Source: Aphrocallistes beatrix (lineage: Eukaryota; Porifera; Hexactinellida; Sceptrulophora; Aphrocallistidae). Taken from it: a stretch of 64,000 bases of DNA. The stretch's first letter is position 1. The number at the start of each line of letters is the position of its first letter. Positions 1,498-53,751 of the stretch are shown here, piece after piece. Under the pieces are notes generated by a model that searched no databases, was not told the DNA's origin, and saw nothing but the letters and a program-made list of their open reading frames with translations. The translations under genes and the position numbers were made by a program. The stretch spans positions 1,054,001 to 1,118,000 of the forward strand of contig OY725502.1 of the NCBI GenBank assembly GCA_963281255.1, read 5' to 3'.

Positions 1498-3774
1498 ATG
1501 GCATCCGGGATTCCTGACAAAGAACTCCCAATTTCACCAAAGCCCTTTACTTATGAAAGGCGTTTTACCTTAAGGCCTGATAACCAGGTTACCATTCCTA
1601 TGCCCAAAAATCCTGATGAGGTGATAGATATCATCAAAAACTCGAACCATAATATACGTGATCTGATCGGTAACAGTTTGAAAGCGCACAGAAACCCGTA
1701 CGAAGCGATGATATTTCTCTACGGATTATCTGGCGCCGGTAAATCCTCCACACTGAACCATTTGTTCAACTCAAAGCTGATCCCTACCTCAGAAAATAAA
1801 TCTGAAACGCCGGAAGTGATTGAGTATGTAGCGACATTGGACAGCACTTCCTGGAACGTGTCTGGGCTAGACATTGGATTCGTTGACACTCCGGGATGGG
1901 GGGACACGAGCGGAAGTGGCATAAAGAATCTCGCAAATATCGATCAATTTCTTCTGAGTCATCCTTTCCTTGATTCGAAACGACTTTTTTACAAATTGTA
2001 CCCTAACCTTGTTATGATCGTTGCTAGGGCGGGTGATCCAAGAATACTTGGAATTAACTCACAACTTTCTAAAATGTTACGTATGGTATCAAAATTGAAC
2101 ATCATTGATAAGAACTGCCCAAACATTATAGTTGCGCTTACTTGTGCCATGTTTATTCGACCCCCAAAAAAGTATGTGGAGAAGAGAGATCTCATGATTA
2201 AGACGATAAAGAGTCTAGTACGTCTCCATTTGGGGGTAGATCCACCAGTGGTGGCGATCGAAAATCTGGCGGATGATGAAGAACTTGACAAAGATGGAGA
2301 CTGGACACTCCTCCCAGACGGGACCAAACAGCCCTTAAATCTCTTTGATGAGATGATCTCCCTGATGAAGGCATCTGGCGATGAGATAGGAGTAGAGGCT
2401 GTTAGGTTGCTTTTCAGTAATACTAGGAATAAGATTGAGAATTTTGTGGCGAGAAAGATTAGTGAAAGAGGAGACTTTTTTAAGGATAATGAGCTTGATA
2501 TAAGTAAATGGGAGAGAATTATTACAGCTGAGTTTGAACCTCTACTAGATACAGAATTGTTTAAAGCGATCGTGTCGTGTGTCGAGGAGAAACGACTACC
2601 TCATCTCTCCTCTCTTACCTACGAATTGGTCCTACCTTTGTTGCATCGGCTGCAGGAAGTAGAGCTGACGGAAACGTCACAGATGAGTAGTATGAACATT
2701 GAATTAATTAATCGCAAACTCGCTCCTTTTAAATTAACTAAAAGTGAACGAATTCTCCTCTTTGAATTGTTTCAAGTTAAACCTTTGGAGAATTTAAAGT
2801 ATGTTGACATGCTGGGTTGTGGATTTAACATAGAAAGTTTGAATGTCAAAAACCGCATAATCTCATCTAGCGATTTGAAATATTGTTACGAGATAGGGAC
2901 TCACGTGCCAAACTTTTCCCAGTTTGTATCCAAGGGAAGACTTCTGATTCACTGCCAGTTTGAGTTTGTTAAAGAATCGATGTTATCTCCGAGAAAGCCA
3001 ACCGTTACATTTTCAGTTCTATACGAGCTATTCAACCTCCACATTGATGTTTCTACTGTTACGTTTGAGAAAGATTTTGTCGATGCTGCTAGCTCTCTCC
3101 CCAAATACGAGCCAGATCCTAACAAGAGCACGTTAAAAGCTTACAAGTCATTCTTCGATCAGTATGGCACTCATTGCCTCCTTAGTTTGAGTTTTGGAGG
3201 TCGTATCAGCGGTTCCATCGATCTCCCAGCTGACTCCAATGATTTCGAAGGAGAAACTTACAGGATAACGAGTGTACTCCGTATATTTTTTGAATATCTC
3301 CAAAAGGGAGAAAGTTTGTCTCTAGCAGAATATACTAGCATTCTTGATGCTAATTCCGTTAATTTGCTAGATAAGCTAGTCGATCGGCCTATCACGTGGA
3401 ATGGCGGAGAAGAGAAGTTCCACGTATCACAATTGAGAAACCTGAATAACGTTTTCTGGAGTTGTTGGGTAGACTCCCTATGTACGAAGTTCACCATTCT
3501 CGACAACATTTCACAGCTAGTCTGCATTTCGAATTGCGTAGCTAGATTTAAAGGCGAGGTTTCTCCCTCGATTGACAAGTATTTTATGGAAACTCAAGAT
3601 GCCAGGAAAATTGCTACAAAACCGCAAGTGTTACCAGTCTCTGAGAATCCAGAGAGGGTTGATTGGGATTTCTCTCGGTCTAAAAAATTCCCTAGGTCTC
3701 CCGTAAAAAACACTAGAGCTTCTGCTAGTGATAATGCCGAGACTAAAACGTATCAGATGTGCGGTTTATTTTGA
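1498..3774 (+). CDS. AIG1/Toc34-like GTPase with MACPF-like segment and C-terminal CaaX box (no Hint)
   Basis: This 758-residue protein carries a paraseptin-type GTPase domain followed by a perforin-like segment. The P-loop GLSGAGKS lies at about residues 76-83 and G3 (DTPG) at 130-133. A Toc/GIMAP-like G4 appears as LTCAMF, where paralogs have LTHA, and G5 reads IEN. A G-C-G-F element near 439 probably opens the MACPF segment, and the MACPF signature YGTH (556-559) is followed by GG 10-11 residues after the Tyr. Paralogs further right carry a Hint domain after this point; this one instead ends in the tetrapeptide CGLF, a CaaX motif whose final Phe suits geranylgeranylation. There is no signal peptide, so a cytosolic, membrane-attached protein is inferred. 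The ATG at 1498 is the first in frame. The domain calls are motif-based; MACPF is less certain than GTPase. Confidence 0.85.
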   Translation: MASGIPDKELPISPKPFTYERRFTLRPDNQVTIPMPKNPDEVIDIIKNSNHNIRDLIGNSLKAHRNPYEAMIFLYGLSGAGKSSTLNHLFNSKLIPTSENKSETPEVIEYVATLDSTSWNVSGLDIGFVDTPGWGDTSGSGIKNLANIDQFLLSHPFLDSKRLFYKLYPNLVMIVARAGDPRILGINSQLSKMLRMVSKLNIIDKNCPNIIVALTCAMFIRPPKKYVEKRDLMIKTIKSLVRLHLGVDPPVVAIENLADDEELDKDGDWTLLPDGTKQPLNLFDEMISLMKASGDEIGVEAVRLLFSNTRNKIENFVARKISERGDFFKDNELDISKWERIITAEFEPLLDTELFKAIVSCVEEKRLPHLSSLTYELVLPLLHRLQEVELTETSQMSSMNIELINRKLAPFKLTKSERILLFELFQVKPLENLKYVDMLGCGFNIESLNVKNRIISSSDLKYCYEIGTHVPNFSQFVSKGRLLIHCQFEFVKESMLSPRKPTVTFSVLYELFNLHIDVSTVTFEKDFVDAASSLPKYEPDPNKSTLKAYKSFFDQYGTHCLLSLSFGGRISGSIDLPADSNDFEGETYRITSVLRIFFEYLQKGESLSLAEYTSILDANSVNLLDKLVDRPITWNGGEEKFHVSQLRNLNNVFWSCWVDSLCTKFTILDNISQLVCISNCVARFKGEVSPSIDKYFMETQDARKIATKPQVLPVSENPERVDWDFSRSKKFPRSPVKNTRASASDNAETKTYQMCGLF

Positions 3775-4167
3775 ATCTCCTCTCAAGATCTCACCTCGCT
3801 CGATTTGTTATTTTAATTAATTGTTGACTATGGTTTTTAAATATGTATTGCTTATCAATAACTCTTTGGTTCGTAGTATTATATAATCGTATATATTTTC
3901 TGTAGCAAAAACAATCTGTTTTATTGTAAGATCTAAATGTCAATGGAAACATTTTTAGTCTTGTCTATATATTAAAAACGTAAAATTATAGTGCTGTAGG
4001 GACTTAAATAGGAGACTTTTGTTCGAACTTGTAAAATGCGAATGAAAATTTATTGACTTAAAATAGGAGAACATAGGGGAATGTACGTATAATAATAGTC
4101 TGAATATAATCTAATATTAGTTTATAATCAAGAATACTAGATTGTTTCATTGTTTTTGGCAATTAGG
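3775..4167. other. Intergenic, nothing recognised
   Basis: AT-rich spacer between the first GTPase-MACPF gene and the ABC transporter gene. It should contain the 3' end of the former and the promoter of the latter. I see no RNA gene or repeat in it. Confidence 0.5.
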
Positions 4168-8115: not shown

Positions 8116-8709
8116 TACATTTATTTTAGTTAGTTAGTTAGTTATTATTTTTTAGTCAACATTCAACATTTTTGTACTTTTAAATACTATTTTAAAACTT
8201 TTCCAGCAGTTTTCAAATGACGGCCATTTCTCGGCTCCATCCCATAAGACTGCCATGGAGGTGGTTTCTTTTAACTCGTGTAGTTAGTTATAACACTGCT
8301 TTTGTTTAGTGAAAAAAATGCTACGAAAAAACTGTTTATGAACCAATTTTGGCTCGGGGACCACTTTTGGCCAGGCTAAAAACGGTCCCCTCCGTACTAA
8401 CTTCGGCCGCGGACACTTATTTGAGACAATTACCCGGATATCCGTTTAATCGTTAAAGTGGACGACTATTTTTTGCTTGAGTTCAGACAGTGCATTCTTG
8501 AAAAAAATAAGCAGGCTAGATAGAACTGTGCAATGCTTTTAAGAAAGTTAAATAACATCAAAATTGATTAATAAGAATGAAAACCTTCAATATCGAGAAA
8601 CCAAATGATTAAATTTGTAAATTATACATAATGCGGTGGGTCCATGTGTACTTAGTTCCAATTAATTCATTGTATTGCACGTTTGTAATAGACATTAGAC
8701 ATTAAGGGG
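8116..8709. other. Intergenic with TTAG microsatellite and possible repeat
   Basis: A short (TAGT)n run lies at about 8126-8143. From about 8340 to 8450 there is a GC-richer patch with self-complementary words (GGGGACC, GGTCCCC) that may be an old MITE, without clear ends. No gene is seen. Confidence 0.4.
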
Positions 8710-16340: not shown

Positions 16341-19300
16341 ATGGCTGCGAGTATTTATACAGACTTGAATTCTGTCAAGTCAACAAAAAGGATTGATAAG
16401 ACAGAAGATTTCTTTGATTTACCGTCCAGTATATTCAGAGCTGATGAGGTTTCAAATCAAAGGGTCTTACATCGAGGAATGGAGATGGTCGGGAATAGCT
16501 TGAAGGCACATAGAGCCTGTAATGAAGCCATCATCTTCGTGTATGGATTGAGTGGAGCTGGAAAAACAGCCTCCCTCAATCATTTGTTCGGATTTCAACT
16601 CATCAATATCGAACAGAACAGAGCCTCCCACACCAAACTAGTCACAGAGTATGTGGCGAGGATGGTCAGTCACGAGTGGCGTGTCAAGAATCTGGACATA
16701 GGCTTCATAGACATGCCCGGTTGGTTTGACACGGATGGGGAGGAACAGGACATCAGGAATGTGGCCACGATTGACCACTTCCTCGTCAATCACTCCTACC
16801 TCGGCTGTCTCGCCTACAAATGCTACCCGAGCATAGTGCTGGTGGCTATCAGAGCTGACGATAAGAGACTTGTAGGAGAGGGTGCTAAGGTGCCACGCAT
16901 GTTCCGAGTTCTCTCCAAGTTGAACATCGTCGACAAACAACGACCCAACCTCCTCATCATACTCACACACGTCTTGAATGTGGGAAGGAAGAACTTCAAA
17001 ACAAGACTCAAACAAACCATCGAAACAGTGGAACAGCTGGTCTACCAATACCTCGACGTGGAACCTGTCATCGTCTACGTTGAGAACGACACGGAGGAGT
17101 TCGAGGAGCTGGAAGAGAAGAAGGGAGATTGGACTGTGTTGAGAGATGGCACTCTCCAACCCAAGAATGTGTTCGAGGCGATGATGCGACTAACCAGTGA
17201 GCACAAGGACGAAGTGGGACAAGAAGCCATCCGCCTCTACTTCGCTTCCAGAGGCAGTAACAAGCCTCAGGTCAGGTCCCAATCTAACCCCGACTCTGTC
17301 TCCAGAGATCAAATTAGGAAGTGGAGAGCGATCATCCATCAAACATTCCCTTCAATCCCGAACAACGAAGTGAGTCGTGCACTACAGAGTTACGCCCAAT
17401 CACACCCCCAGCCATTCCCACCCTCCAGCCTATGCAAACTGATGGAGGAGCTGAGTACCAACAGCCTCACGCACCTGGACACTCTCCGCACCCTGTCACT
17501 GGACCAGCTGCAGCAGAAACTGTCTCCTTACAACCTCTCACAGCTGGAGTGTCAGGCGCTGATGGAAGGTTGTGGTGTGAGACCGCCTCAATGGACACAC
17601 ATCTTCCAGCACATCGGCTATGGAGTGAACACGGGCATCAGCAGCAGTCCAGAGACAGAGACCGCTCCTCTCCTTTGCTCTTCCCCTGCCTTCACTGTGA
17701 CAGGGGAGTGCTGCCAGGAGGGAGAGCTAACCGTCCCGACATGCATGCAGGTGGTTATTCCCATCGAGAGACGGCGAGTGGAATGGAAGAGAATGGAACC
17801 AGCTCCACAGACAGACAAGAAGGAGATAGCCCATCCCGTCAAGTACCAGTTCCAGATCAGTCAGAGTGTCCGCTGCATCAGACTTCTCTCCAATCAACAG
17901 CAGCTGATCTCTCTGCTCAGTCCTGCCTTCAAGGAGGCAGTAGCAGCTCTACCTGACTCCAGTGTGGTAGAGGAGAGTCAGCAGATGAGAGAGGAGTATC
18001 AGCACTTCTTCAACACGTACGGACATTTCGTGATTGTTGCTTGTGAGTGTGGAGGTGTTGTGCAGGGAGAGGTGAAACTGATGGAGAAGGAAGCCATTGA
18101 CAAACAACAAACCATCAAGTCATATATAAACAACCTCCTAGAGAAGATAGAAGCAGCCGGTGGTTCTGAAGATTTGGGCAGTTTGAAACGAGAAGTTCAA
18201 GGAGAAAGATCAGATCTGTTCTACGAACTTGATAACGCAGCACTCAGCTGGAAAGGAGGCCTCACTCCTCCAGAGTGTACCCTACACTCTCTGTTACATC
18301 ACACCTGGATGGAGTGGACTGCTTCCCTGCACGAAAACCCTGCACCACCTGACTACTCACAGTTAGACATGGACACAACTCTGCCCATCTACGAACTCAT
18401 TGGTTTGATAGATCAGAAGAAATCTACTCAAGTACAGTTCCTATGGCAAAAGGAGAATATCCTCCAATATAAAAAGTCAAAATATCCTAACTTGTTTTCA
18501 CACATAGAGTCAATCGAAGAAAATCTCAGTCCTAAGGAAATTTCTGAGTTTTATCTTAAACGTGAATTGGTCGCAAAAGCGCATGTATCTCAAACGCTTG
18601 CTAATTCCCCAGGTGGCTTTCCTGAGAGTGCAACTGTGGTTAATGGGAGCTTTCTTGACTATTCAACTGTTGGAATATCTCGAGTTAAATTAGGTGATAG
18701 GGTACTTTGTCTTGATCCTTGGGAGTCCAAGTTTCAGAAAATTGTTTACATACATGCAATAGACAAAGAAATGGAGTTAAATTATCTTAACATCATTCAC
18801 GAATACGGAGAATTACGAATCGGTTATAATCATACAATTCTGAGGAGACAGTCCGATACTCCTTATACAAAAGACAAAAGATTAGTTGTTGCCAGTTCTC
18901 TACAAGTAGGAGATGTCATCTACTTCGTAGATAATGTAGAAAATAAGTATTTAGAATCTATTGTATGTGCTATTGACACGAAGAAAGGTAAAGGCCATTA
19001 TTCTTTGAAAATAAATAATAATTTTGCTGATATAGTTGTGAACCAAGTTGTAACAGGAGACGAGGAAGCAGCTTGTTTTCCAGGAAATGCGAGTGTAACA
19101 TTGAAAGGAGGAGAGAAAGTGAGGATGGATGAAGTGAAGATAGGAGACTACGTGCTATCCATCCATCCCAGTACAGGCAAACCTGTCTACTCCAAAGTCT
19201 ACCTCTGGGCACATCGAGATCCACACATCACAGCCACATTCCTCCACATCACACATCCTCATGGACACCTTCACATCTCTGCTAACCATCTCATCCTAAG

Positions 19301-19748
19301 TGGAGAGCAGAGGAGACCAGTGCCAGCTGGTCACCTGGCAGTGGGAGATACTATCCATTCCTTGCTATCTCCTGCTGCCACTGCCACTGCCACTGCTACT
19401 GCCACTGCCACTGCTACTGCTATCTCAGTACCCGTGTTACACATCCACACGTGTATACAGGTGGGATACTACGCACCCTTCACGAACAACGGACTGATTG
19501 TGGTGGATGGCATAGCGTCCAGTGTGTACAGTCAGCCCTCTACTCGCTCCCATGCACACGTGTGTGCTAGTGTGACTGGAGGACTGGTGGAACAGTTCGG
19601 TTTGCATAGAGTGGGGGAGTGTGTGATGACACCAGTGCGAGTAGGCTGTAAGTTGGGTGTGGGGAGTCTCATCCTCACTAAGCAGATGGACACCACTATT
19701 CACATACACAAGTATTGTCAATGGCTGATGAAGATTTTGAATATGTAG
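16341..19748 (+). CDS. GTPase-MACPF-pseudoHint-Hint fusion protein 2
   Basis: 1135 residues, single exon. P-loop GLSGAGKT at 69-76; G3 DMPG at 124-127; G4 LTHVLNVG; G5 VENDTEE, followed by the family signature GDWTVLRDGT. The MACPF segment starts near GYGVNTG, with YGHF at 560-563 and GG ten residues on. From residue 758 a second Hint-like domain begins GGFPESATV: the position of the catalytic Cys is Gly. It keeps a GDRVL block, the GYNHTIL block and a GHYSL...IVVN block. The competent Hint starts at C912 (CFPGNASV). Its Ala-Thr repeat is the longest in the window. A likely poly(A) signal AATAAA is at 19760-19765. It is the close partner of the inverted pseudogene at 20608-23454. GTP hydrolysis, membrane binding by MACPF and Hint self-cleavage are family inferences. 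Confidence 0.88.
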   Translation: MAASIYTDLNSVKSTKRIDKTEDFFDLPSSIFRADEVSNQRVLHRGMEMVGNSLKAHRACNEAIIFVYGLSGAGKTASLNHLFGFQLINIEQNRASHTKLVTEYVARMVSHEWRVKNLDIGFIDMPGWFDTDGEEQDIRNVATIDHFLVNHSYLGCLAYKCYPSIVLVAIRADDKRLVGEGAKVPRMFRVLSKLNIVDKQRPNLLIILTHVLNVGRKNFKTRLKQTIETVEQLVYQYLDVEPVIVYVENDTEEFEELEEKKGDWTVLRDGTLQPKNVFEAMMRLTSEHKDEVGQEAIRLYFASRGSNKPQVRSQSNPDSVSRDQIRKWRAIIHQTFPSIPNNEVSRALQSYAQSHPQPFPPSSLCKLMEELSTNSLTHLDTLRTLSLDQLQQKLSPYNLSQLECQALMEGCGVRPPQWTHIFQHIGYGVNTGISSSPETETAPLLCSSPAFTVTGECCQEGELTVPTCMQVVIPIERRRVEWKRMEPAPQTDKKEIAHPVKYQFQISQSVRCIRLLSNQQQLISLLSPAFKEAVAALPDSSVVEESQQMREEYQHFFNTYGHFVIVACECGGVVQGEVKLMEKEAIDKQQTIKSYINNLLEKIEAAGGSEDLGSLKREVQGERSDLFYELDNAALSWKGGLTPPECTLHSLLHHTWMEWTASLHENPAPPDYSQLDMDTTLPIYELIGLIDQKKSTQVQFLWQKENILQYKKSKYPNLFSHIESIEENLSPKEISEFYLKRELVAKAHVSQTLANSPGGFPESATVVNGSFLDYSTVGISRVKLGDRVLCLDPWESKFQKIVYIHAIDKEMELNYLNIIHEYGELRIGYNHTILRRQSDTPYTKDKRLVVASSLQVGDVIYFVDNVENKYLESIVCAIDTKKGKGHYSLKINNNFADIVVNQVVTGDEEAACFPGNASVTLKGGEKVRMDEVKIGDYVLSIHPSTGKPVYSKVYLWAHRDPHITATFLHITHPHGHLHISANHLILSGEQRRPVPAGHLAVGDTIHSLLSPAATATATATATATATAISVPVLHIHTCIQVGYYAPFTNNGLIVVDGIASSVYSQPSTRSHAHVCASVTGGLVEQFGLHRVGECVMTPVRVGCKLGVGSLILTKQMDTTIHIHKYCQWLMKILNM
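19378..19425 (+). repeat. In-frame GCCACT/GCTACT microsatellite (Ala-Thr repeat)
   Basis: Six-base units coding alternating Ala and Thr inside the Hint domain, just before the ISVPVLHIH block. This copy is longest. Copies in other paralogs have fewer units (15050-15070, about 33535-33565 and others), and the copy near 51115 is reduced to a few residues. Length varies in whole 6-bp steps, so the frame is kept. Confidence 0.85.
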
Positions 19749-28763: not shown

Positions 28764-31700
28764 TTAATAAATCTTCATCAGCCATTGACAATACTTGTGT
28801 ATGTGAGTAGTGGTGTCCATCTGCTTAGTGAGGATGAGACTCCCCACACCCAACTTACAGCCTACTCGCACTGGTGTCATCACACACTCCCCCACTCTAT
28901 GCAAACCAAACTGTTCCACCAGTCCTCCAGTCACACTAGCACACACGTGTGCATGGGAGCGAGTAGAGGGCTGACTGTACACACTGGACGCTATGCCATC
29001 CACCACAATCAGTCCGTTGTTCGTGAAGGGTGCGTAGTATCCCACCTGTGTACACGTGTGGATGTGTAACACGGGTACTGAGATAGCAGTAGCAGTAGCA
29101 GTGGCAGCAGGAGATAGCAAGGAATGGATAGTGTCTCCCACTGCCAGGTGACCAGCTGGCACTGGTCTCCTCTGCTCTCCACTCAGGATGAGATGGTTAG
29201 CAGAGATGTGAAGGTGTCCGTGAGGATGTGTGATGTGGAGGAATGTGGCTGTGACGTGTGGATCTCGATGTGCCCAGAGGTAGACTTTGGAGTAGACAGG
29301 TTTGCCTGTACTGGGATGGATGGATAGCACGTAGTCTCCTATCTTCACTTCATCCATCCTCACTTTCTCTCCTCCTTTCAATGTTACACTCGCATTTCCT
29401 GGGAAACAAGTATCTTCTTCCTCTCCTAAATATACATTATCTACTAGCAGAAGGGATGTTCCTTTTACTTCGATAGAGTATTTGTTTGGAGATATACTCT
29501 CTCCAGTTGCTTCTACGTTCGATTTCATTATTTTATTTTGATGGGAGCAAAATATAGTGTCACCTGGAATTAGGCTTTCAACTTTAACTAATGATTGAGT
29601 TAGATTATTCGCACTACACTTCATTATCATTTTATGCATACCAATTTTACTTTCTCCAAGCGTGTGCACTATGTATCTATAACGAAAACTCCCTGTTTGT
29701 TTTTCAATTTTCTCTACTTGAATAAATTTCTTTTTACACTTGTTAGTCCTGTGTAAAAGTCTATCACCAGTTTGAAGATCTTCAATTTTGATCAAAGAAT
29801 TTTCTTGATTTTCTTCAAATTTGATAACTTTCGATGTTCCTGGAAATCCCCGTCCAATTTGTAATTTATCTAATGTTTTCGATATGTTAACCGTAGAAAA
29901 CTTTTCAATACTCTCTATAAAATCATAATCTACAAATGGATCTTTGAAAGCATTCTCTGGTAGAAGATTATTACTTGCATTTTCCCAATCCAATCCACGA
30001 GTGTTTTTAGGAAAAATGTTGAATGGTGATGCATCAAGAGTTTCGTGTGCAAGTCTAACTTGTGCAGACTTTGATTTGTCTAACAAGTTTACAAACTGGA
30101 ATACTGGTGCGGCCTTTCCATTTGATAGCTGTTGTGTATCTAGTGGAATCGGATCTTCCATGAGTGAGTCAACCCACTGGATCCAATCTCTATGTGTGAG
30201 ATTGTCAAGATTTAATTCTCCTCTCATCTGTTTCCCTCCTGACCAGCTTAACTGACTGATCCGAATGCGATCTTGAATGTCTCCCAATCCATGATCCTGA
30301 CCTTCAAAACCGAGTGGTAGATCTTCCTCATCCGTTTCTAATCTATCAATGAGGTTGTAGAGGAATGACTTGATCAGTTCGAGTTGCTGATCGTTGGAAT
30401 CCTTCTCCATCAGTTGTACGTCTCCCTGTACAACACCTCCACACTCACAAGCAACAATCACGAAATGTCCGTACGTGTTGAAGAAGTGCTGATACTCCTC
30501 TCTCACCTGCTGACTCTCCTCTACCACACTGGAGTCAGGCAGAGCTGTTACTGCCTCCTTGAAGGCAGGGCTGAGCAGAGGGATCAGCTGCTGTTGATTG
30601 AAGAGAAGTCTGATACAGCGGACACTCTGACTGATCTGGAACTGGTACTTAACACATCCTGTATGTGCTTCGTTGTTATTTTCTTTCAGTAAGACACACA
30701 TTGTTTCAATGGGAACCACTGCTTCCATACATTTGGGGACTTTCAAATTTGCCATCACATGTGATTCATCAGCTATTAACTGGATTAGATTACTTTTAGT
30801 TATAATTTCTTGTTCGGTATTGATTCCATGACCTATTGTTTCGATTATTTGAGGAATATCAAAAGGAATGACACCGCACACTTTCATCAGAGCTTTCGAT
30901 TCAATCTCATCAATCTCGTAAGGCGTCAAGAGCTCCTTGATTTGATTGAGTGTCTTTGATTGAAGTTGTTTTAGTTTGGTGATTTTCCTTTTCTCCATTT
31001 CCAAGATCAATCTGTTGAGTATATCTGAATCGCCATATGTATCTATTTGTGTATTTGCGTAATCAAATAATGCATTATTTACTTCATTTGAACTTAGTGC
31101 TATAAACTGAGAGGCGAGTTCATTTTTCCATTTCCTTACAGAGTCGACTGATAATGCAGTTGGATCGGACTTTCTCCTACATTTTGGATGATTGGTACCT
31201 CTAGACTTTACAAATATCCGAATTGCCTCTTGGCCCACTTCATCCTTACACCTTCTTGTCATCGTCATCATTGCCTCTAGTACATTGATTGGTTGGGGTG
31301 TCCCATCCCTCAAAACAGTCCAATCTTCTCCTTTTTTGTCTAATTCATGCGCTTTCCATTTATTTTCGATGTGTACAATTTCAGGTTTTATTCCAAGTAT
31401 TTCATTTGATAGAGTGTTCAACCATGTTTCAATTTCTTTGATTGTGTCTTTATATTCTCCTCTAGCAATGCTATGCACATTAGTGAGAACGAATAGGACA
31501 TTGGGGCGTTTTTTATCTACAATTCGCAATTTTGAGAGATTATGTATCATAGCATAAAGAGAACCATTATCACTTCCTCCAGACCTTTTATTTGTTGTAT
31601 CTATTGCAACAAGTATAATACTGGGATAAATTTTAAAATTTTTACAACCTAGATAAGGATGACTTTTAATGAAATAGTCTATATTGGCCATATTAATAGC

Positions 31701-32144
31701 GTCCTGACCCCCCTTTCTCGTGTCATTCCATCCTGGTACATCAATGAAACCGATTTCAAGATCCTTAACCTTCCATTTATCACTTTTCATCGTGGCGATG
31801 TATTCTGAAATTAGTGTTGTATCTGCTTGTCGGTGCTTTTTGATGATAATTTCATCCATGCCGAATATATGATTGAGTGTTGATGTTTTTCCAGCTCCAG
31901 TCAGCCCATAGGTGAATATGATCGCTTCATTGCATGACCTTTGTGCTGTCAAACTGTTTTTAACCATGTTGATGGCTCTTTCGTGGTTGATTTTTCCTTG
32001 CATTAAATCATCATTCATCTGTTTTGCTTCAAAGATATTTGATGGTAATCTGTAATATTCCTGATCATCAGGAAGCCTGTCCTTGTTTGCAACTTCCTCT
32101 TCCGTTCCTGGGTTTATTTCATCGCTTCCCAATCTCGTGGCCAT
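28764..32144 (-). CDS. GTPase-MACPF-pseudoHint-Hint fusion protein 4
   Basis: 1126 residues. P-loop GLTGAGKT from residue 80 with Lys86; G3 DVPG; G4 LTNVHSIA, where Asn replaces the usual His; G5 IEN. The MACPF core (codons near 30650-30420) is almost identical in protein to that of the gene at 16341, with YGHF at 558-561, while sequences on both sides differ strongly. This indicates a converted patch. A Hint-like domain without Cys starts GRGFPGTSK near residue 765 and keeps a TGDRLL block. The competent Hint starts at C913. No signal peptide. The ATG at 32144 is used. Confidence 0.87.
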   Translation of the reverse strand: MATRLGSDEINPGTEEEVANKDRLPDDQEYYRLPSNIFEAKQMNDDLMQGKINHERAINMVKNSLTAQRSCNEAIIFTYGLTGAGKTSTLNHIFGMDEIIIKKHRQADTTLISEYIATMKSDKWKVKDLEIGFIDVPGWNDTRKGGQDAINMANIDYFIKSHPYLGCKNFKIYPSIILVAIDTTNKRSGGSDNGSLYAMIHNLSKLRIVDKKRPNVLFVLTNVHSIARGEYKDTIKEIETWLNTLSNEILGIKPEIVHIENKWKAHELDKKGEDWTVLRDGTPQPINVLEAMMTMTRRCKDEVGQEAIRIFVKSRGTNHPKCRRKSDPTALSVDSVRKWKNELASQFIALSSNEVNNALFDYANTQIDTYGDSDILNRLILEMEKRKITKLKQLQSKTLNQIKELLTPYEIDEIESKALMKVCGVIPFDIPQIIETIGHGINTEQEIITKSNLIQLIADESHVMANLKVPKCMEAVVPIETMCVLLKENNNEAHTGCVKYQFQISQSVRCIRLLFNQQQLIPLLSPAFKEAVTALPDSSVVEESQQVREEYQHFFNTYGHFVIVACECGGVVQGDVQLMEKDSNDQQLELIKSFLYNLIDRLETDEEDLPLGFEGQDHGLGDIQDRIRISQLSWSGGKQMRGELNLDNLTHRDWIQWVDSLMEDPIPLDTQQLSNGKAAPVFQFVNLLDKSKSAQVRLAHETLDASPFNIFPKNTRGLDWENASNNLLPENAFKDPFVDYDFIESIEKFSTVNISKTLDKLQIGRGFPGTSKVIKFEENQENSLIKIEDLQTGDRLLHRTNKCKKKFIQVEKIEKQTGSFRYRYIVHTLGESKIGMHKMIMKCSANNLTQSLVKVESLIPGDTIFCSHQNKIMKSNVEATGESISPNKYSIEVKGTSLLLVDNVYLGEEEDTCFPGNASVTLKGGEKVRMDEVKIGDYVLSIHPSTGKPVYSKVYLWAHRDPHVTATFLHITHPHGHLHISANHLILSGEQRRPVPAGHLAVGDTIHSLLSPAATATATAISVPVLHIHTCTQVGYYAPFTNNGLIVVDGIASSVYSQPSTRSHAHVCASVTGGLVEQFGLHRVGECVMTPVRVGCKLGVGSLILTKQMDTTTHIHKYCQWLMKIY

Positions 32145-42872: not shown

Positions 42873-42943
42873 ATACGGAATTTCAAGCATTTAGCATTTC
42901 GACTTTTTGTATGGATCCCTTAATTAATGATAGCATACAACAT

Positions 42944-43147: not shown

Positions 43148-46100
43148 TCAGTTCAAATTATGATACAATTTCATCAGCCATTGACAATACTTGTGTATGT
43201 GAGTAGTGGTGTCCATCTGCTTAGTGAGGATGATACTCCCCACACCCAACTTACAGCCTACTCGCACTGGTGTCATCACACACTCCCCCACTCTATGCAA
43301 ACCAAACTGTTCAACCAGTCCTCCAGTCACACTAGCACACACGTGTGCATGGGAGCGAGTAGAGGGCTGACTGTACACACTGGACGCTATGCCACCCACC
43401 ACAATCAGTCCGTTGTTCGTGAAGGGTGCGTAGTATCCCACCTGTGTACACGTGTGGATGTGTAACACGGGTACTGAGATAGCAGTAGCAGTGGCAGTGG
43501 CAGCAGGAGATAGCAAGGAATGGATAGTGTCTCCCACTGCCAGGTGACCAGCTGGCACTGGTATCCTCTGCTCTCCACTCAGGATGAGATGGTTAGCAGA
43601 GATGTGAAGGTGTCCGTGAGGATGTGTGATGTGGAGGAATGTGGCTGTGACGTGTGGATCTCGATGTGCCCAGAGGTAGACTTTGGAGTAGACAGGTTTG
43701 CCTGTACTGGGATGGATGGATAGCACGTAGTCTCCTATCTTCACTTCATCCATCCTCACTTTCTCACCTCCTTTCAATGTTACACTCGCATTTCCTGGAA
43801 AACAAGTCTCTTCTCTTCCACCACAAGCGATTCCATCCACTATTACACTAAAATGATCATCTTCATATATACAAGGCTGGATATTTCCTTCCATCTTCTC
43901 CAGTCTCAATTCTGTGATCCGTGTTGTTTTGAGTTTAGTACCAGCTGTATTAATCCAGACTAGTTTGTCCCGAATCTTGAGCTTCCTCACTATCGTCTTT
44001 TTAAGTTTTTTTCCTTTCAACACATTATTCAAATCTCCACTCGAAAAAACTCCATGACTATGCCTTATTTGGATATAGTAAAAAGCTCCTTTTAGTTTTG
44101 AGATGTCTACAACTGGGACGTAAGCTCGTGTATGTCTCGCACTGATGCATTCGACGTAATTTCCTTTCTGTAAATCTTTCATTTTGATTTCTTCACTTTG
44201 TATGTCATCTGATTGAAATTTTCGTTTCACCATTGAATTTGCAGGAAATCCATAGGCTGATATGAGAGCTGTATTAGTTCGAGCTCGTCTTGCAGCTCCT
44301 GTCCTCCTGGTATCATGTACTCGTTCTGGTACCTCTATCACTTCATACTCGTTCAGAATATCAGCAAATGCAAAGACTCGTGAATCACGACGAGATCTTG
44401 TTTCATGTTCTGTCTCTACATCAGAATTAATTTCAATGGGATTTCCCATTTGTAAAATAAAATCTTCTTCATTCAAAGAAAGAATGTCGTCTATGTCAAA
44501 ATCTTCATCAGCTGTTCCATCTACAACTAGTTTCAACTGATTAGCTTTGGCATCTTGGAATGGTTTTATGAGTGAATAGACAGGAAATGAAACAGGGCTA
44601 AGTTTGATATTTTCCAAAGGAATTGGATCTTCGATGAGAGAACGTTTCCAACTCTCCCAAATTCCACTCGAGACATCCACCACTTTCAGTTTTCTTCCTT
44701 TATGAACTGGTGGAATGCCACCTCGCCATGTTAACTCTGCATTGAGTACAGCCTGTATAACCGAATTCACTTTTTCATTTTGAATCGGCTCCTTTATTTG
44801 ATGTCTCATACGAGCAAACAATCTGAGGTACTGCTTAATGGTAGCTTCAGTGTTGTGTATCTCTACTTCGGACATCTCTATGGTAATCTGTCCTGTGATC
44901 ACTCCACCTCCTTCCCAATGAGTCCGAAAACAGTGACCGTATTTGTCCAGAAACTCCAAGTATTGAGGATGAAATATCTGTTCTGTTCCCTCTTCTCTCA
45001 CTTCTGGAAGCATGCACGAGTCAGGAAGAGCGTACACTGACTGCTTGAATTCGGGTGTGATGTAGTTTTCAATTTGTTCGAGATATTGAATTGGTAGACT
45101 GAATGCTGTGTGTGTGATTGAAAATATGAATGTGTATGGTTTAATTTGGTTTGTGATTGTTATTTCCGATTTTATGGTGTCAATGATTTGAACTTCTCCA
45201 TCTTGTTCTTTCTGTCTGCTCAGAGTCTCACAATAACAGTTCACTACACTGTTCTCGTAGAATAGTATGTCCATACAAGTGGGCAATAAGACTCCATTGC
45301 ATACGCGTGTATCATCTGGTTGATCGGTAACAAAATTGAAGATTGGTTGAGGTGCAGTTGGTATTATTTCCTTATTGATGCAGCCTCGCGAAATCTCATC
45401 CAGAAACCTCGGATAAGAAAGTGGCTTAACCTTGAATACTTGGATGAGTGCTTCTTTGTCCAATTCCGTTAACTGATAAGGCCAGACCCTCTTCTGCACC
45501 TCGGACCAACTCTGTCCTGTCAACTCACTCGGATGTGTGATTCTAGCCTTGTTTAACTCTGCCATGAGAAGAAGTAATCCGTCTTCAGGGATATTGGGGT
45601 TAGTTTGAAGATAGAGTTTGAGTGCTCGTATACATTCATTATCTTGTATGTGAATATTTTTTTGAATGACAACTTTACACCAACGTTGATATCCTTCTTC
45701 GTTTTCTTTTCCAATTGGTTCTATCCTCCTTTTTTGAGGAAGCTTAGCGTCACCTTGAAAGAAAAGGCGCACAGCCTCAATTCCCACTTCGTCTCCGTTA
45801 TTTTTCATCAATTGGATCATCGCTTCGAACAAGTTGAGTGGCTGTTGTGTTCCATCTGGTAACAACGTCCAATCTCCTTCCGTCTCTAATTGATAAGAAT
45901 CTGTACAGTTTTCTACATAGACAGTTTCTACATTGGGAATGTCTAAGCTGCTGCTTACAATTTTCTTCACACTCTCTGCTTGTTCTCTGATGCTTGTTGC
46001 AAAACTATTCTTTGGTACACCCATAGCGTGAGTCAACACGATGAGTACATTATTCTTACGATTGTCCACCAGGTTTAAGTGTTTTAAAGCTTTGAGCATC

Positions 46101-46651
46101 TTGTTGAAGTTGGAATCATGTCCACTAATACGAATGTCTGTGGCAGAAATAGTTATGAGGACAATGTTGGGATAGCATTTATAGGAGTGTAAGCCTAAAT
46201 GGTCATGTCCTTTGATGAACTCTTCAATTGCTGACAAGTTCATTACATCTTGCATTTCACCCTTTGTATCGTTGTAACCAGGAGGATTGATGAAGCCTAT
46301 CTCTAGGTTGGTAGCTCTCCAATGTTCACTGGTTAGAGTTGTGACGTACTCAGTAACCGTTGTAGTTTCTGACTTTGAGTCACTAGTCGGTATCAGCTCA
46401 CTATTGAACAAATGATTCAATGTCTTTGATGCTCCTGATCCAGAAACTCCATACGCGAATATGATTGCTTGGTTACAAGCTCTCCTTACTTCGAAACTTG
46501 TTTCAACTAGTCTCATTGCAGGGTGATCGTACCGGATCCTTCTCAACTTGGAAGCTTCTAACAGTGAGCTGGGGAGTTTTAATAAATCGTCATTTCCTGC
46601 TTGACTATTAGTGTTTGGCAATTCTTCCTGTATCGGGTTGGATTCTGCCAT
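43148..46651 (-). CDS. Pseudo-GTPase-MACPF-pseudoHint-Hint fusion protein 7
   Basis: 1167 residues from the ATG at 46651 (MAESNPIQEE), the homologous start in the trio; further upstream only non-ATG codons extend the frame. P-loop GVSGSGAS from residue 68 with Ala74 in place of Lys; G3 NPPG. MACPF YGHC...GGG. Cys-less Hint-like domain YGFPANSM. Competent Hint from C950, with private changes (QRIPVP, VVGGIA, GSIIL) not seen in other copies. The C-terminus LYHNLN is shared with the gene at 47072, unlike its trio sisters, showing that the Hint end was exchanged between neighbours. Confidence 0.87.
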   Translation of the reverse strand: MAESNPIQEELPNTNSQAGNDDLLKLPSSLLEASKLRRIRYDHPAMRLVETSFEVRRACNQAIIFAYGVSGSGASKTLNHLFNSELIPTSDSKSETTTVTEYVTTLTSEHWRATNLEIGFINPPGYNDTKGEMQDVMNLSAIEEFIKGHDHLGLHSYKCYPNIVLITISATDIRISGHDSNFNKMLKALKHLNLVDNRKNNVLIVLTHAMGVPKNSFATSIREQAESVKKIVSSSLDIPNVETVYVENCTDSYQLETEGDWTLLPDGTQQPLNLFEAMIQLMKNNGDEVGIEAVRLFFQGDAKLPQKRRIEPIGKENEEGYQRWCKVVIQKNIHIQDNECIRALKLYLQTNPNIPEDGLLLLMAELNKARITHPSELTGQSWSEVQKRVWPYQLTELDKEALIQVFKVKPLSYPRFLDEISRGCINKEIIPTAPQPIFNFVTDQPDDTRVCNGVLLPTCMDILFYENSVVNCYCETLSRQKEQDGEVQIIDTIKSEITITNQIKPYTFIFSITHTAFSLPIQYLEQIENYITPEFKQSVYALPDSCMLPEVREEGTEQIFHPQYLEFLDKYGHCFRTHWEGGGVITGQITIEMSEVEIHNTEATIKQYLRLFARMRHQIKEPIQNEKVNSVIQAVLNAELTWRGGIPPVHKGRKLKVVDVSSGIWESWKRSLIEDPIPLENIKLSPVSFPVYSLIKPFQDAKANQLKLVVDGTADEDFDIDDILSLNEEDFILQMGNPIEINSDVETEHETRSRRDSRVFAFADILNEYEVIEVPERVHDTRRTGAARRARTNTALISAYGFPANSMVKRKFQSDDIQSEEIKMKDLQKGNYVECISARHTRAYVPVVDISKLKGAFYYIQIRHSHGVFSSGDLNNVLKGKKLKKTIVRKLKIRDKLVWINTAGTKLKTTRITELRLEKMEGNIQPCIYEDDHFSVIVDGIACGGREETCFPGNASVTLKGGEKVRMDEVKIGDYVLSIHPSTGKPVYSKVYLWAHRDPHVTATFLHITHPHGHLHISANHLILSGEQRIPVPAGHLAVGDTIHSLLSPAATATATAISVPVLHIHTCTQVGYYAPFTNNGLIVVGGIASSVYSQPSTRSHAHVCASVTGGLVEQFGLHRVGECVMTPVRVGCKLGVGSIILTKQMDTTTHIHKYCQWLMKLYHNLN

Positions 46652-47071: not shown

Positions 47072-50000
47072 TCAGTTTAAATTATGATACAATTTCATCA
47101 GCCATTGACAATACTTGTGTATGTGAGTAGTGGTGTCCATCTGCTTAGTGAGGATGAGACTCCCCACACCCAACTTACAGCCTACTCGCACTGGTGTCAT
47201 CACACACTCCCCCACTCTATGCAAACCGAACTGTTCCACCAGTCCTCCAGTCACACTAGCACACACGTGTGCATGGGAGCGAGTAGAGGGCTGACTGTAC
47301 ACACTGGACGCTATGCCATCCACCACAATCAGTCCGTTGTTCGTGAAGGGTGCGTAGTATCCCACCTGTGTACACGTGTGGATGTGTAACACGGGTACTG
47401 AGATAGCAGTAGCAGTGGCAGTGGCAGCAGGAGATAGCAAGGAATGGATAGTGTCTCCCACTGCCAGGTGACCAGCTGGCACTGGTCTCCTCTGCTCTCC
47501 ACTCAGGATGAGATGGTTAGCAGAGATGTGAAGGTGTCCGTGAGGATGTGTGATGTGGAGGAATGTGGCTGTGACGTGTGGATCTCGATGTGCCCAGAGG
47601 TAGACTTTGGAGTAGACAGGTTTGCCTGTACTGGGATGGATGGATAGCACGTAGTCTCCTATCTTCACTTTATCCATCCTCACTTTCTCTCCTCCTTTCA
47701 ATGTTACACTTGCATTTCCTGGGAAACAAGCGTCTTCTTTTTCACAAACGATTCCATCAACAATGACGTTTCCATTCACTTCAGGTAGATAATTCCCTTG
47801 TTCTCTGACAAAACCAATTGTTTTCACTTTTGTTTGTTTGGTTTCTGTCGCTTTCATCTCGTAACGATAGATTTTACTTCCTAACTTCAGCTTATCGGCT
47901 GCTATAGGTCGTGAGACTTGTCCGTGCATTATTCTGTGTCTATATCCGATAGTAACTGTTGCCAAGTTATCAGATATGGTGAGGTATTCCACTTGCTTTG
48001 TATCGTTTCTTTCTATCTCATTAATAATCTGATACATTACTTTGCCGTACTTATTTGCGGACAGTACGTGATCACCTTTTACTAATTGTTTGATCTCAGT
48101 TTCTCTGCAGTCCCCATTTACTTCTCTCTTCCATAATTTCGCAATTCCTGGAAATCCACCTTTAGATCGGTCGCAAGCGCCTGTCTCAGCTTGTTCGGAT
48201 GCTAACTCTCTGGTGAGAGGTTTCGCGGTTTCATTCAATCTTAGTGACCGAGTCATTGTTCTCCTACGGGGTCCAAATCTCTCGATATGAATGGTTGCCT
48301 CCAGTGCATTCTTAGGATTTTCTTCTAACTTTAAATCTTCAATTTCAAAGTATTGTATATCTGGGTGTAACGCCATTAAAGCATCCCTCATCTTGTTGCC
48401 TTTAGATTCGTTAATAAGACTAACAAATTTAAATATTGGCATGGATCTAACATTGTTCTCGAAGTTTGATAGAACGATTGCTTTCTTTTTTAGAGAATTT
48501 ATCCATGTTTGCCAGGTTTCGTGATCAATATCGTTCAAGTTCTCACGGAATTCAGGCTTAACTCCTCCCTCCCACGTAATGGGAGCTTGCATTATCTTGT
48601 TGAAGACTTCTTCACTGAGTTGATCTCGACCCTCGATCTTCGTTCCCGTTTGCAGAGAAGCTAGGTATAACTGGACGTATTTTTCTACTATTGATTTGGT
48701 TCTGTTCAAGTCATAGTCTCTGCTTTGTAAACTCAATTCTCCCTCGATGAGCCCTCCACTGTCACACTCCAAGATAAAGTACTGACCATATTTTTTAAAG
48801 AAATCCATGTAACTTTCGTTAACTACAGGGCCTTCTAATCCCATATGCGTGGATACATCTGGCAGATCGTTTACATCTTTAATAAACTCCTCCTCCACTA
48901 GCTTGATGATGTCTTTGAATAACACCAACTGTATTCGAATTAAGATTTGTATGACTGAAAAGGTGAATCGATACGTGTCTATGTGATCTGCAATGCACAT
49001 GGATACACAGGTTATTGGGCTCAAAGGGGGAGACATGCAAGTTGGCTTCAAACCTGGTAAATTTGAATCCTGATTTTCAAAGGACTTTTCAAGATGCAGT
49101 TTGGGGGGTGTTTTTTCTTGACATGCTTCGATATCTTTGTCAATAAATTCAACATTGCAATTTACTCTGATTTCTTCGATCGGAACTGTTCTCATACACG
49201 TTGGCACATTGACTCCATGGCTAGTGTAATATTCTGTCAGTGGCTTTAAAATTCGATGACAAACCTTTCGCGTGCTCGTGTCATAACCCCTCCCAACGTA
49301 GTTAACTAGATCTGGGAAAGTTCTTGACTTTACATTAAATACTTCCATGAGGACATTCTTCTCTAGATCACTCAGTACGTAGGGAGTGATGCGCTCCTGT
49401 ACGTCATCAATGTTAAGCTCATTGAAATCAATTTTTTCTGTGAATCCTGCCTTGTGCAATTCGAACATAATAGGGAGCAGTTGTTGACTTTTAAGCTCGG
49501 AACGTTGGGTATAATACTTTTTGATCATGCGAACAACTTCTGTTTCTACCAATGTTTTGAACTTGCTGATTATAATTGTTTGCCAACGTTTTTGATCCAT
49601 CTGGGATACCCTGTCAGTTGGCAGGGCACAGCGTTTAATGGGTTTGTTCTTACCTCTGTCATGAAAATAGAGCCTAATTGCTTCTACGCCCACCTCGTCC
49701 TCTGAATCGGTCATGAGTTCAATCATTTGATCAAATAAATTCTTAGGTTGTAATATATCGTCATAAAGTATTGTCCATTCCCCTTCCGTTTTCAATAAGA
49801 ACCCGGTCGTGTTGTTTTCTAACAAGATAACTGGAGCTTCTACCTGTAAATAAGTTCTTGTGAGAGTTTGGATCGAGAGTTCAATAGACTTAATTGTTTC
49901 ACTGTAGTTGAGAGGCGGAATACTCTTAGCATGCGTCAGAACGACGATGACATTCGGTCGTTTGGTGTCTACTATTTTAAGCTCACTCAAAACTCGCAAC

Positions 50001-50509
50001 ATTTTAGCTGCGTTTGAGTCTCGACCTTCGATGCGTTCGTCCATAATATTGAAAGTCAACAAGATTATGTTGGGATAGCATTTGTAGAGTCTGGAACCCA
50101 AATGTCTATGATTCGTAATGTACTGCTCTATTGTTGCCATATTTCGTGCGTCTTGTATGTCTCCGTGCGTATCTGCCCACCCAGGGAGATCAATGAACCC
50201 AATCTCCAAATTCGTAACTTCCCACGCTTCACTGTTCATTGTAGCCACGTACTCGGTAACATTATGTGTATCTGATGTTCTTTCCTTTGATTTGGGTATG
50301 ATCTCAAAACCGAACAAATGGTTAAGTGAAGAAGTTTTCCCAGCACCCGTTAACCCGTAAACAAACAAAATGGCTTGATTGCAAGCTCTATGGGCATGTA
50401 AACTCGCGTCCACCAATTTCATCCCTCTATGGTAATGTGTTTTAACAAGGCTATTGATCTCGATGGGTGAAGAAGGGAGTTTGAAATAATCTGCTGATGC
50501 TGTGGCCAT
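47072..50509 (-). CDS. GTPase-MACPF-pseudoHint-Hint fusion protein 8
   Basis: 1145 residues from the ATG at 50509. P-loop GLTGAGKT from residue 52 with K58; G3 DLPG; G4 LTHAKSIPP, the best match in the window to the Toc-type G4; G5 LENNT. MACPF starts at GRGYDTST and has YGQYF...GG. After an Arg-rich linker comes a Cys-less Hint-like domain starting GGFPGIAK, with a well-kept GDHVLSANKYG block and a GYRHRIM block. The competent Hint starts at C928. It is well diverged from other paralogs in the GTPase/MACPF part but nearly identical in the Hint cassette. Confidence 0.88.
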   Translation of the reverse strand: MATASADYFKLPSSPIEINSLVKTHYHRGMKLVDASLHAHRACNQAILFVYGLTGAGKTSSLNHLFGFEIIPKSKERTSDTHNVTEYVATMNSEAWEVTNLEIGFIDLPGWADTHGDIQDARNMATIEQYITNHRHLGSRLYKCYPNIILLTFNIMDERIEGRDSNAAKMLRVLSELKIVDTKRPNVIVVLTHAKSIPPLNYSETIKSIELSIQTLTRTYLQVEAPVILLENNTTGFLLKTEGEWTILYDDILQPKNLFDQMIELMTDSEDEVGVEAIRLYFHDRGKNKPIKRCALPTDRVSQMDQKRWQTIIISKFKTLVETEVVRMIKKYYTQRSELKSQQLLPIMFELHKAGFTEKIDFNELNIDDVQERITPYVLSDLEKNVLMEVFNVKSRTFPDLVNYVGRGYDTSTRKVCHRILKPLTEYYTSHGVNVPTCMRTVPIEEIRVNCNVEFIDKDIEACQEKTPPKLHLEKSFENQDSNLPGLKPTCMSPPLSPITCVSMCIADHIDTYRFTFSVIQILIRIQLVLFKDIIKLVEEEFIKDVNDLPDVSTHMGLEGPVVNESYMDFFKKYGQYFILECDSGGLIEGELSLQSRDYDLNRTKSIVEKYVQLYLASLQTGTKIEGRDQLSEEVFNKIMQAPITWEGGVKPEFRENLNDIDHETWQTWINSLKKKAIVLSNFENNVRSMPIFKFVSLINESKGNKMRDALMALHPDIQYFEIEDLKLEENPKNALEATIHIERFGPRRRTMTRSLRLNETAKPLTRELASEQAETGACDRSKGGFPGIAKLWKREVNGDCRETEIKQLVKGDHVLSANKYGKVMYQIINEIERNDTKQVEYLTISDNLATVTIGYRHRIMHGQVSRPIAADKLKLGSKIYRYEMKATETKQTKVKTIGFVREQGNYLPEVNGNVIVDGIVCEKEDACFPGNASVTLKGGEKVRMDKVKIGDYVLSIHPSTGKPVYSKVYLWAHRDPHVTATFLHITHPHGHLHISANHLILSGEQRRPVPAGHLAVGDTIHSLLSPAATATATAISVPVLHIHTCTQVGYYAPFTNNGLIVVDGIASSVYSQPSTRSHAHVCASVTGGLVEQFGLHRVGECVMTPVRVGCKLGVGSLILTKQMDTTTHIHKYCQWLMKLYHNLN

Positions 50510-50784
50510 TGAAAAACCTCTCTCCTCTACACACTAACTCTAACGCTAATATTATTGTTATCAATTGCATAATCAAGAAAATAATATGAAGTGTATATAC
50601 TTAGCAACTATAACCAAATCATTGACGATACAGATAATGTAGAAGTCGATATGTACCTAAAGTTGATAATCCGTGTAAGGATTATCTCTAGAAGTTGCTC
50701 CAAAACAAATAAATAAATTGATTAACATATATGAATAAACTACGCAGAATAATTGTGAATCTAAACGGCGAACTTGAGCTGGTT

Positions 50785-53751: not shown

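Follow-up and report, generated by a model that had tools for sequence, protein, structure and literature searches.

GTPase-MACPF proteins with CaaX or Hedgehog-type Hog ends in a gene cluster of the hexactinellid sponge Aphrocallistes beatrix

Fusions between AIG1-like GTPases and Hog or Hint domains have been described in fungi, namely GmGIN1 of Glomus (PMC2362128) and the C46 expansion of Glomeromycotina (PMC8778642), in the coral Acropora (AIG1+Hint, PMC3723955), in Biomphalaria, where AIG occurs with hint/hedgehog (PMC7053062), and in amphioxus, with a CARD+AIG1+HINT arrangement (PMC12373286). The accessible portions of these accounts of fungi, corals, snails and lancelets leave open the role played by the Hint domain. 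A related architecture, in which a MACPF segment is inserted between GTPase and Hint, characterizes a cluster of twelve loci of Aphrocallistes beatrix (assembly GCA_963281255.1). The window, i.e. the whole stretch of 64,000 nucleotides analysed here, covers positions 1,054,001 to 1,118,000 of the forward strand of contig OY725502.1 (C16:1054001-1118000), and the genome searched with it amounts to 100.5 Mb on 28 contigs; C1, C2, C4 and so on are contig labels of this same genome, and labels of the L0xx type denote loci outside the window unless stated otherwise.

The initial annotation of this DNA had proposed an undescribed family joining an AIG1/Toc34-like GTPase, a MACPF-like segment and a Hedgehog-type Hint. 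The order of GTPase-like front, MACPF-like segment and Hint is borne out by the sequence; all twelve claimed loci are confirmed between 1498 and 53751, and ten of them have the CFPGNASV Hint as C-terminal end, as claimed. As to novelty, the literature searched upholds the word 'undescribed' for the form bearing MACPF and not for the union of GTPase and Hint, already known from AIG1+Hint fusions; the MACPF placed between the two, together with the exchange of CaaX and Hog ends, appears to be new. The short motifs said to be common to all twelve loci were overstated, the literal counts being 7/12 for LPxS, 6/12 for LTHA, 9/12 for DxPG, 3/12 for GxG[YF][DN] and 10/12 for YG...GG, with exceptions to the last at the 50785 locus, which has FG and GSG, and at 20608-23454, which is without that stretch. 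Frames are uninterrupted in 10/12 loci (758-1181 amino acids, aa). Two loci are broken: 8710-10992 by an in-frame TAA at 10066, and 20608-23454 by an in-frame TAA at 21822-21820, with the second half of MACPF missing; a Pfam scan of the latter returns two Hint stretches and no MACPF match. Further copies of the family are located on C1, C2, C4, C6, C7, C12 and elsewhere on C16, and truncated copies are present on C7, C12 and C2. In the following list pseudoHint stands for a second, dead Hint, and bits refer to the Pfam MACPF profile (curated cut-off 21.5 bits).

1498..3774, forward strand: GTPase-MACPF, 758 aa, no Hint; CaaX box CGLF 3760-3771; MACPF 36.5 bits
8710..10992, forward strand: GTPase-MACPF with in-frame TAA at 10066; CaaX box CQII 10978-10989; MACPF 47.6 bits
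11852..15397, forward strand: GTPase-MACPF-pseudoHint-Hint; pseudoHint 14267-14746, Hint 14747-15394; MACPF 16.9 bits, under the cut-off
16341..19748, forward strand: GTPase-MACPF-pseudoHint-Hint; pseudoHint 18615-19073, Hint 19074-19745; MACPF 37.5 bits
20608..23454, reverse strand: broken copy with in-frame TAA 21822-21820 and without the second half of MACPF; pseudoHint 21256-21708, Hint 20611-21255
24636..28142, reverse strand: pseudo-GTPase-MACPF-pseudoHint-Hint; pseudoHint 25293-25739, Hint 24639-25292; MACPF 19.7 bits, under the cut-off
28764..32144, reverse strand: GTPase-MACPF-pseudoHint-Hint; pseudoHint 29409-29849, Hint 28767-29408; MACPF 32.9 bits
33199..36684, reverse strand: GTPase-MACPF-pseudoHint-Hint; pseudoHint 33868-34308, Hint 33202-33867; MACPF 31.6 bits
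37172..40693, reverse strand: pseudo-GTPase-MACPF-pseudoHint-Hint; pseudoHint 37820-38266, Hint 37175-37819; MACPF 19.1 bits, under the cut-off
43148..46651, reverse strand: pseudo-GTPase-MACPF-pseudoHint-Hint; pseudoHint 43805-44251, Hint 43151-43804; MACPF 18.4 bits, under the cut-off
47072..50509, reverse strand: GTPase-MACPF-pseudoHint-Hint, structure predicted; MACPF motif 48740-48793, pseudoHint 47729-48157, Hint 47075-47728; MACPF 36.3 bits
50785..53751 (start 53736 or 53751), reverse strand: GTPase-MACPF-Hint, no pseudoHint; Hint 50788-51420; MACPF 25 bits

Judged from its sequence, the Hint of the window is a Hog domain, that is, a Hint followed by a sterol-recognition region. The Pfam Hint profile is found in all ten Hint loci of the window, and the genome search with PF01079 gave at least 25 matches, namely 19 full-type Hints, 4 dead Hints and 2 remnants. 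All 19 full-type Hints sit on GTPase-MACPF loci, some of them interrupted by a stop or damaged in another way (the first gene of L027 is counted here without its GTPase front in the sequence read), and the profile is covered up to positions 205-209 of 213 in 18 of them and up to 179 in the remaining one, at C4:2274943. In particular, the C7 copy L028 aligns with residues 257-459 of Drosophila HhC, most of the sterol-recognition region included (E 2.6e-10), and the closest solved structures are those of Drosophila Hedgehog, with 6TYY at the top. Catalytic residues are kept throughout: Cys1 stands at the start of the Hint in 19/19, and so does the [S/T]xxH block, with Ser instead of Thr in 18. 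At position 303, whose place was set by alignment to Hedgehog, His occurs in 19/19 and Asp, the general base of Hedgehog, in none. According to the accessible part of a review (PMC9163320), 6TYY is itself the D303H mutant of Drosophila Hedgehog, which retains structure and activity and accepts a widened range of sterols. The lone match of the genome to the Hedge domain (PF01085), at L064 (C1:5075004-5075399, 29.9 bits), lies in a 543-codon frame in which no Hog is found.

Nine of the window's ten Hint loci (50785 is the exception) have a second Hint-like domain immediately before the Hint. A profile of ten such segments of 143-160 residues, eight of the window's nine plus two from C4, aligns with a profile of 16 Hint cores over 134 columns with an hhalign probability of 99.4 (E 2.5e-21); taken singly, only 4 match the Pfam Hint profile when the genome is searched at E<=0.001. 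All ten segments begin with Gly in place of Cys and therefore could not start the reaction. In two otherwise close pairs of genes the stretch made up of linker and dead Hint is the least conserved one, with nonsynonymous divergence (dN) of 0.34 and 0.51 versus 0.03-0.06 in the GTPase and in the middle region plus MACPF.

The two window loci devoid of Hint finish in CaaX boxes, CGLF and CQII, and the same alternative is met in the rest of the genome. Among 22 C-termini of Hint-less GTPase-MACPF genes that were read (the count leaves out the ends of, for example, C1:10074350, 10078130, 10082666, C6:4257101 and C7:812358), 15 have the form C-x-x-[LIFM], 2 in the window, 11 on C1 and 2 on C6, and the terminal Cys is kept in 15/15 rows of this CaaX clade. 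A joint tree separates the 12 CaaX rows of full length as a single group (100/99) from 19 Hint or lost-Hint rows, and in the MACPF tree all 15 CaaX rows are grouped (95/90, 94% of bootstrap trees). The lost-Hint genes L031b, L034/L050 and L051 fall inside Hint clades; the genes placed in trees do not include L049, L052, L053 and L054, and in L049, L053 and L054 the linker, shared with the C12 Hint genes, is followed by an apparently different frame that sets in just short of the Cys1 position. The ends of the two clades also share an RxxA motif in the linker, selected after having been seen: all 15 CaaX rows have it 9-15 residues ahead of the CaaX Cys (shuffles would give 1.3), and 9/16 Hint rows have it 12-18 residues ahead of the first Hint (2.7 expected). 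With ten classical AIG1 GTPases from this genome as the root of the GTPase tree, the Hint clade (100/98) emerges among CaaX rows, with incomplete support for the deeper forks (93/85 and 91/85). The simplest history would be that Hog took the place of CaaX once and that losses came afterwards. For the predicted lipid anchor, at first conjectured from the presence of the Hint only, the CaaX boxes found in the sister clade are a second, independent line of support.

A peculiar arrangement concerns L035 and L049 (C12:1024151-1035043), where a 3630-codon frame contains tandem GTPase-MACPF units every ~2121 bases and ends with an apparent frame shift just before the place of the Hint Cys1. This frame could be a polyprotein, a series of decaying repeats or an assembly effect.

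The MACPF-like segment is likewise supported by sequence, with both Pfam and PDB profile searches pointing to this family. Pfam MACPF is matched at E<=0.01 in 11/11 alignment rows containing the segment (row 10069 belongs to the 8710-10992 locus), and the curated cut-off is exceeded in seven, i.e. 1498, 10069, 16341, 28764, 33199, 47072 and 50785. A profile built from nine of the eleven segments, leaving out the near copies 37172 and 43148, has perforin-1 as its best PDB match (4.2e-7), complement C9 and C6 being matched as well, and the alignment with perforin-1 covers both the YG...GG stretch and the GG...W..SL end. A misreading of the segment as MACPF is rejected in view of the Pfam matches in all eleven rows and of the perforin-1 profile match. 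The signature of MACPF proteins is Y-G-[TS]-H...GG. In the twelve loci it appears as YGTH with GG in two, both with CaaX ends, as YG.. with GG in eight and as FG..GSG in one, and it is absent in one. AlphaFold was applied to the 1145-residue product of 47072-50509 with an alignment of 14 window rows; in a model with a mean predicted local distance difference test (pLDDT) of 63.5 and a predicted template modelling score (pTM) of 0.39 overall, ten-residue pLDDT means are 56-94 in the GTPase and 46-88 in MACPF, both mostly above 70. Elsewhere on C16, L018 (C16:202605-203135) is a separate MACPF protein, a 472-codon frame without GTPase whose start looks hydrophobic and signal-like by eye.

The GTPase front matches general GTPase, septin and AIG1 profiles. 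The GTPase signatures GxxxxGK[ST] and DxxG are present in 9/12 window loci and lost in the other three, the near-identical 24636, 37172 and 43148, which lack both the Lys of the P-loop (GSGASKT) and the Asp of G3 (INPPGY) and, on these residues, are pseudo-GTPases. The label 'AIG1/Toc34-like' is too specific: the best whole protein of the window reaches 26.2 bits with AIG1 (PF04548), under a cut-off of 27, and the others score lower or are unmatched; that best locus rises to 28.3 bits once neighbouring pieces are added. In the GTPase tree, moreover, the family and the classical AIG1 proteins of the same genome form separate groups (100/100, with long branches). Sixteen classical AIG1 loci were read out of 91 matches in the genome, and their ends are diverse: CaaX in 2 (L016, L061), CNFV in 1 (L009), tails that are hydrophobic by eye in 5 (L014, L015, L058, L060, L063), a Vint-type Hint in 3 (L011-L013) and none of these in 5 (L010, L056, L057, L059, L062). 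The three Vint-type cases, at C7:786621-796809, join a classical AIG1 to a Hint (PF14623 over cut-off in 3/3) and represent a second GTPase-Hint union in this genome.

The Hints are strikingly more uniform than the proteins that carry them. In distant pairs of the window, 50785-53736 excluded, average identity rises from 47% over the 60 bases preceding the Cys1 codon to 97% over the 60 that follow it, and the Hint remains 97-100% identical up to the last 12-24 bases of the reading frame; the 20608-23454 copy contributes hardly anything to these means. At four-fold sites the Hint diverges by 0.03-0.05 in the pairs listed, versus 0.57-0.77 for GTPase-MACPF between distant members, whose N-terminal parts have 28-48% protein identity. 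In 50785-53736 only the first 300-odd bases of the Hint are homogenised with the other copies, and in L029/L030 on C12 the Hint core is 97-100% identical, with 67% in its first 60 bases and 43-61% at its end. On C4, the Hints of two neighbours are 98.9% alike, versus 97.0 and 95.5 to their respective N-terminal sisters on C16; for the upstream parts the relation is reversed, with 50% between neighbours versus 73 and 61% to the C16 sisters. Repeated gene conversion, starting at the Cys1 codon and with differing tract ends, best explains this uniformity. A higher G+C content at four-fold sites, 0.43-0.60 in homogenised tracts versus 0.18-0.34 in dead Hints, on small counts, lends weak support to conversion, and against this signal stand the unhomogenised Hint of L033, with 0.40-0.43, and the GTPase-MACPF parts, with 0.28-0.56.

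Two other origins of the identical Hints were considered. A mobile Hint cassette, suggested by the start of identity at the Cys1 codon, was set aside, the differing tract ends fitting gene conversion better, and recent tandem duplication was rejected, as N-terminal four-fold sites are near saturation in distant pairs. Recent duplicates do exist, i.e. the three pseudo-GTPase loci, 16341 with 21820 (in 20608-23454) and the C4 copies, so that the 'rapid tandem expansion' proposed at first holds for some copies; most have old N-terminal parts, and the apparent recency of the cluster is due to the gene conversion of the Hint. The contrast between a processing domain in sharp concerted evolution and strongly diverged effector parts makes this a clean case of conversion nearly limited to one domain.

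Between near pairs, the ratio of nonsynonymous to synonymous divergence (dN/dS) is 0.28-0.65 for the GTPase (14 pairs) and, in 13 out of 15 pairs, 0.37-0.51 for the middle region plus MACPF; the pair L038mac/L048mac, with no GTPase, is outside the first of these counts. On these ratios of near pairs the genes are mostly constrained. As regards their location, none of the 12 window rows that include a start shows a strongly hydrophobic leader; in these rows ten-residue hydropathy, a crude substitute for a signal-peptide predictor, is at most 1.81 over the first 60 residues. As a reference, 2.83 and 2.90 are reached at the hydrophobic starts of two glypican-like genes of the window (56423-58027 and 59130-60917, the second under the Pfam cut-off, 24 vs 26.4 bits). 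The missing hydrophobic leader, the GTPase and the CaaX ends therefore argue for the cytosol, and proteins secreted for attack are disfavoured by the absence of a leader together with the CaaX ends.

Taken together, we give a probability of roughly one half to the reading that these proteins are cytosolic, GTP-switched, perforin-like effectors, tethered to membranes through a C-terminal lipid that is either a prenyl group or a sterol ester made by Hog. One clade would gain its lipid through CaaX prenylation; in the other, the CaaX box would be replaced by the Hedgehog-type Hog domain, and the lipid, by analogy with Hog chemistry, is probably a sterol. Specifically, Cys1 would attack the preceding peptide bond (N-S acyl shift), and a sterol held by the C-terminal sterol-recognition region would then attack the thioester, with the histidine as general base, yielding a sterol ester of the protein and shedding the Hog domain. 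In most members of the window the new C-terminus of the freed protein would still bear the dead Hint copy. The GTPase may control self-assembly, as it does in septins and GIMAPs, and may gather MACPF segments on cytosolic membrane faces, which they would perforate or remodel; pore formation is what we infer from the families involved. A plausible role would be in cell-autonomous defence or cell death, an immune function being suggested by the protein families. In this regard, a caspase gene with a long N-terminal part (L034, C7:499501-501711; PF00656, 157.5 bits) lies about 4.6 kb from a GTPase-MACPF gene, and AIG1 clusters likewise occur on C7 in the neighbourhood of its GTPase-MACPF copies, a proximity that is suggestive only.

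Several points weigh against this picture. As to the Hint, a Gly before Cys1, as in Hedgehog, occurs in 1/19 only (L033), window Hints have Val where Hedgehog has C400, and the active Hint is unresolved in the model (pLDDT 25-47, and 50-78 for the dead Hint), low values being expected there because the rows are near-identical. A transfer of sterol in the cytosol would be unusual, and the known processing of Hedgehog takes place in the endoplasmic reticulum, according to the portion of the review at hand (PMC9163320). Among Hint-less ends, 7/22 are without CaaX (L031b, L049, L050, L051, L052, L053, L054), 7/16 Hints have no preceding RxxA, and the root that makes CaaX ancestral depends on very long branches. 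MACPF is under the cut-off in 4/11 rows, i.e. 11852 (16.9), 24636 (19.7), 37172 (19.1) and 43148 (18.4). With 3/12 pseudo-GTPases and 2/12 broken loci, a GTP switch cannot, on sequence grounds, be common to all. Outside the window, the same crude hydropathy measure gives 2.03 for L047 (from an upstream Met) and 2.18 for L032b (whose true start is outside the sequence read). Lastly, the middle region plus MACPF has dN/dS of 0.82 and 1.04 in the two other near pairs, and several near pairs have ratios above 1 in the linker or Hint, where changes are few.

Some Hint-type domains cleave by hydrolysis. The Hint could then merely cut, its hydrolytic self-removal switching on or releasing the GTPase-MACPF protein with no lipid added, as the lack of Gly at -1 in 18/19 Hints and of Hedgehog's C400 in the window copies would allow. 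Such a domain would hardly be expected to retain the sterol-recognition end, which is kept in 18/19 and aligned with that of Hedgehog in one copy, or a base able to activate a sterol, which is His in 19/19, nor would it account for a CaaX box at the corresponding end of the sister clade, and we regard this explanation as unlikely. A second alternative accepts the lipid and denies the pore: the proteins would be lipid-anchored scaffolds or remodellers, like septins and GIMAPs, with MACPF as an assembly surface. Non-lytic MACPF proteins exist, septins are also matched by the GTPase profile, no hydrophobic leader was found, and 4/11 segments stay below the Pfam cut-off; set against this, perforin-1 and C9 can be aligned with the central blocks of the MACPF segment, and YGTH and GG are exact in the two CaaX copies; we regard this alternative, too, as unlikely. 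That the cluster is largely decaying, its frames surviving by chance or through recent duplication and conversion with no shared function, as 2/12 broken loci, 3/12 pseudo-GTPases, truncated copies on C7, C12 and C2 and the dN/dS values close to or over 1 that some near pairs show for Hint or linker, from a small number of changes, might suggest, is very doubtful in the face of ten uninterrupted frames of 758-1181 aa despite mostly 28-48% identity, of the dN/dS values of 0.28-0.65 (GTPase, 14 near pairs) and 0.37-0.51 (middle region plus MACPF, 13/15), of Cys1, [S/T]xxH and His303 in 19/19 Hints and of the terminal Cys in 15/15 rows of the CaaX clade.

The reading of lipid-tethered cytosolic effectors can be narrowed to an evolutionary proposal, offered tentatively and at slightly less than even odds: Hog would have replaced CaaX in a cytosolic, immune-type GTPase-perforin lineage, self-made sterol esterification by a His303 Hog taking the place of prenylation by an enzyme, with the cassette held uniform by conversion while the effector parts diversify. 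With CaaX and Hog as alternative ends of one family, the role of Hint receives a testable answer, i.e. C-terminal lipidation. If true, the chemistry of Hedgehog would operate in a second biological setting, inside the cell and on membrane-attacking or membrane-shaping proteins, and protein cholesteroylation would occur outside both the secretory pathway and signalling. The natural His303 domains would, in addition, be ready-made candidates for sterol ligation in vitro.

Two further features of the window deserve mention. Between two GTPase-MACPF genes, a long frame at 4141-8115 resembles by eye a full ABC transporter of the ABCC type, and at 61089-62759 a 12-base tandem array (GTAGCTACATGT and variants) creates four long frames that overlap and lie on both strands.

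In open-licence full texts, MACPF and Hint were not found in one protein, the amphioxus paper PMC12373286 mentioning both, in its accessible part, without uniting them; it is also the only such text found for MACPF with AIG1. No stonustoxin with MACPF and GTPase was found in open-licence full texts, and a text naming both CaaX and Hint has nothing to do with an exchange of the two; a search for relatives among viral contigs, based on a single protein, gave no match to six short patterns. Compared with the AIG1+Hog/Hint fusions, as far as the available portions of their accounts describe them, the sponge proteins share an N-terminal P-loop GTPase and a C-terminal Hog/Hint, and the lack of a signal peptide in GmGIN1 (PMC2362128, in part) parallels that of a hydrophobic leader in the window rows; they differ in the MACPF placed in between, in the CaaX relatives, in the second, dead Hint, and in a GTPase that is at or under the AIG1 cut-off. 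With GIMAP/AIG1 proteins they have in common a G domain with an LTH-like G4, and unlike these, which have no MACPF, they form a separate clade. Guanylate-binding proteins are immune GTPases that act on membranes, some of them with a C-terminal CaaX lipid anchor. Those with CaaX would resemble the CaaX clade of the sponge proteins; they belong to another GTPase family, with neither MACPF nor Hint. The core blocks YG..GG and GG..W..SL are those of perforin and complement C9, from which the sponge proteins depart in having no hydrophobic leader, in the fusion of MACPF behind a GTPase and in that Pfam scans of the window proteins found no other perforin or complement domain. Finally, Cys1, the xxH block, the union of Hint and sterol-recognition region and the best PDB match are those of the Hog domain (HhC) of Hedgehog; unlike Hedgehog, the sponge Hog has a natural His303 and a Gly at -1 in 1/19, and its cargo is a GTPase-MACPF protein with no hydrophobic leader.

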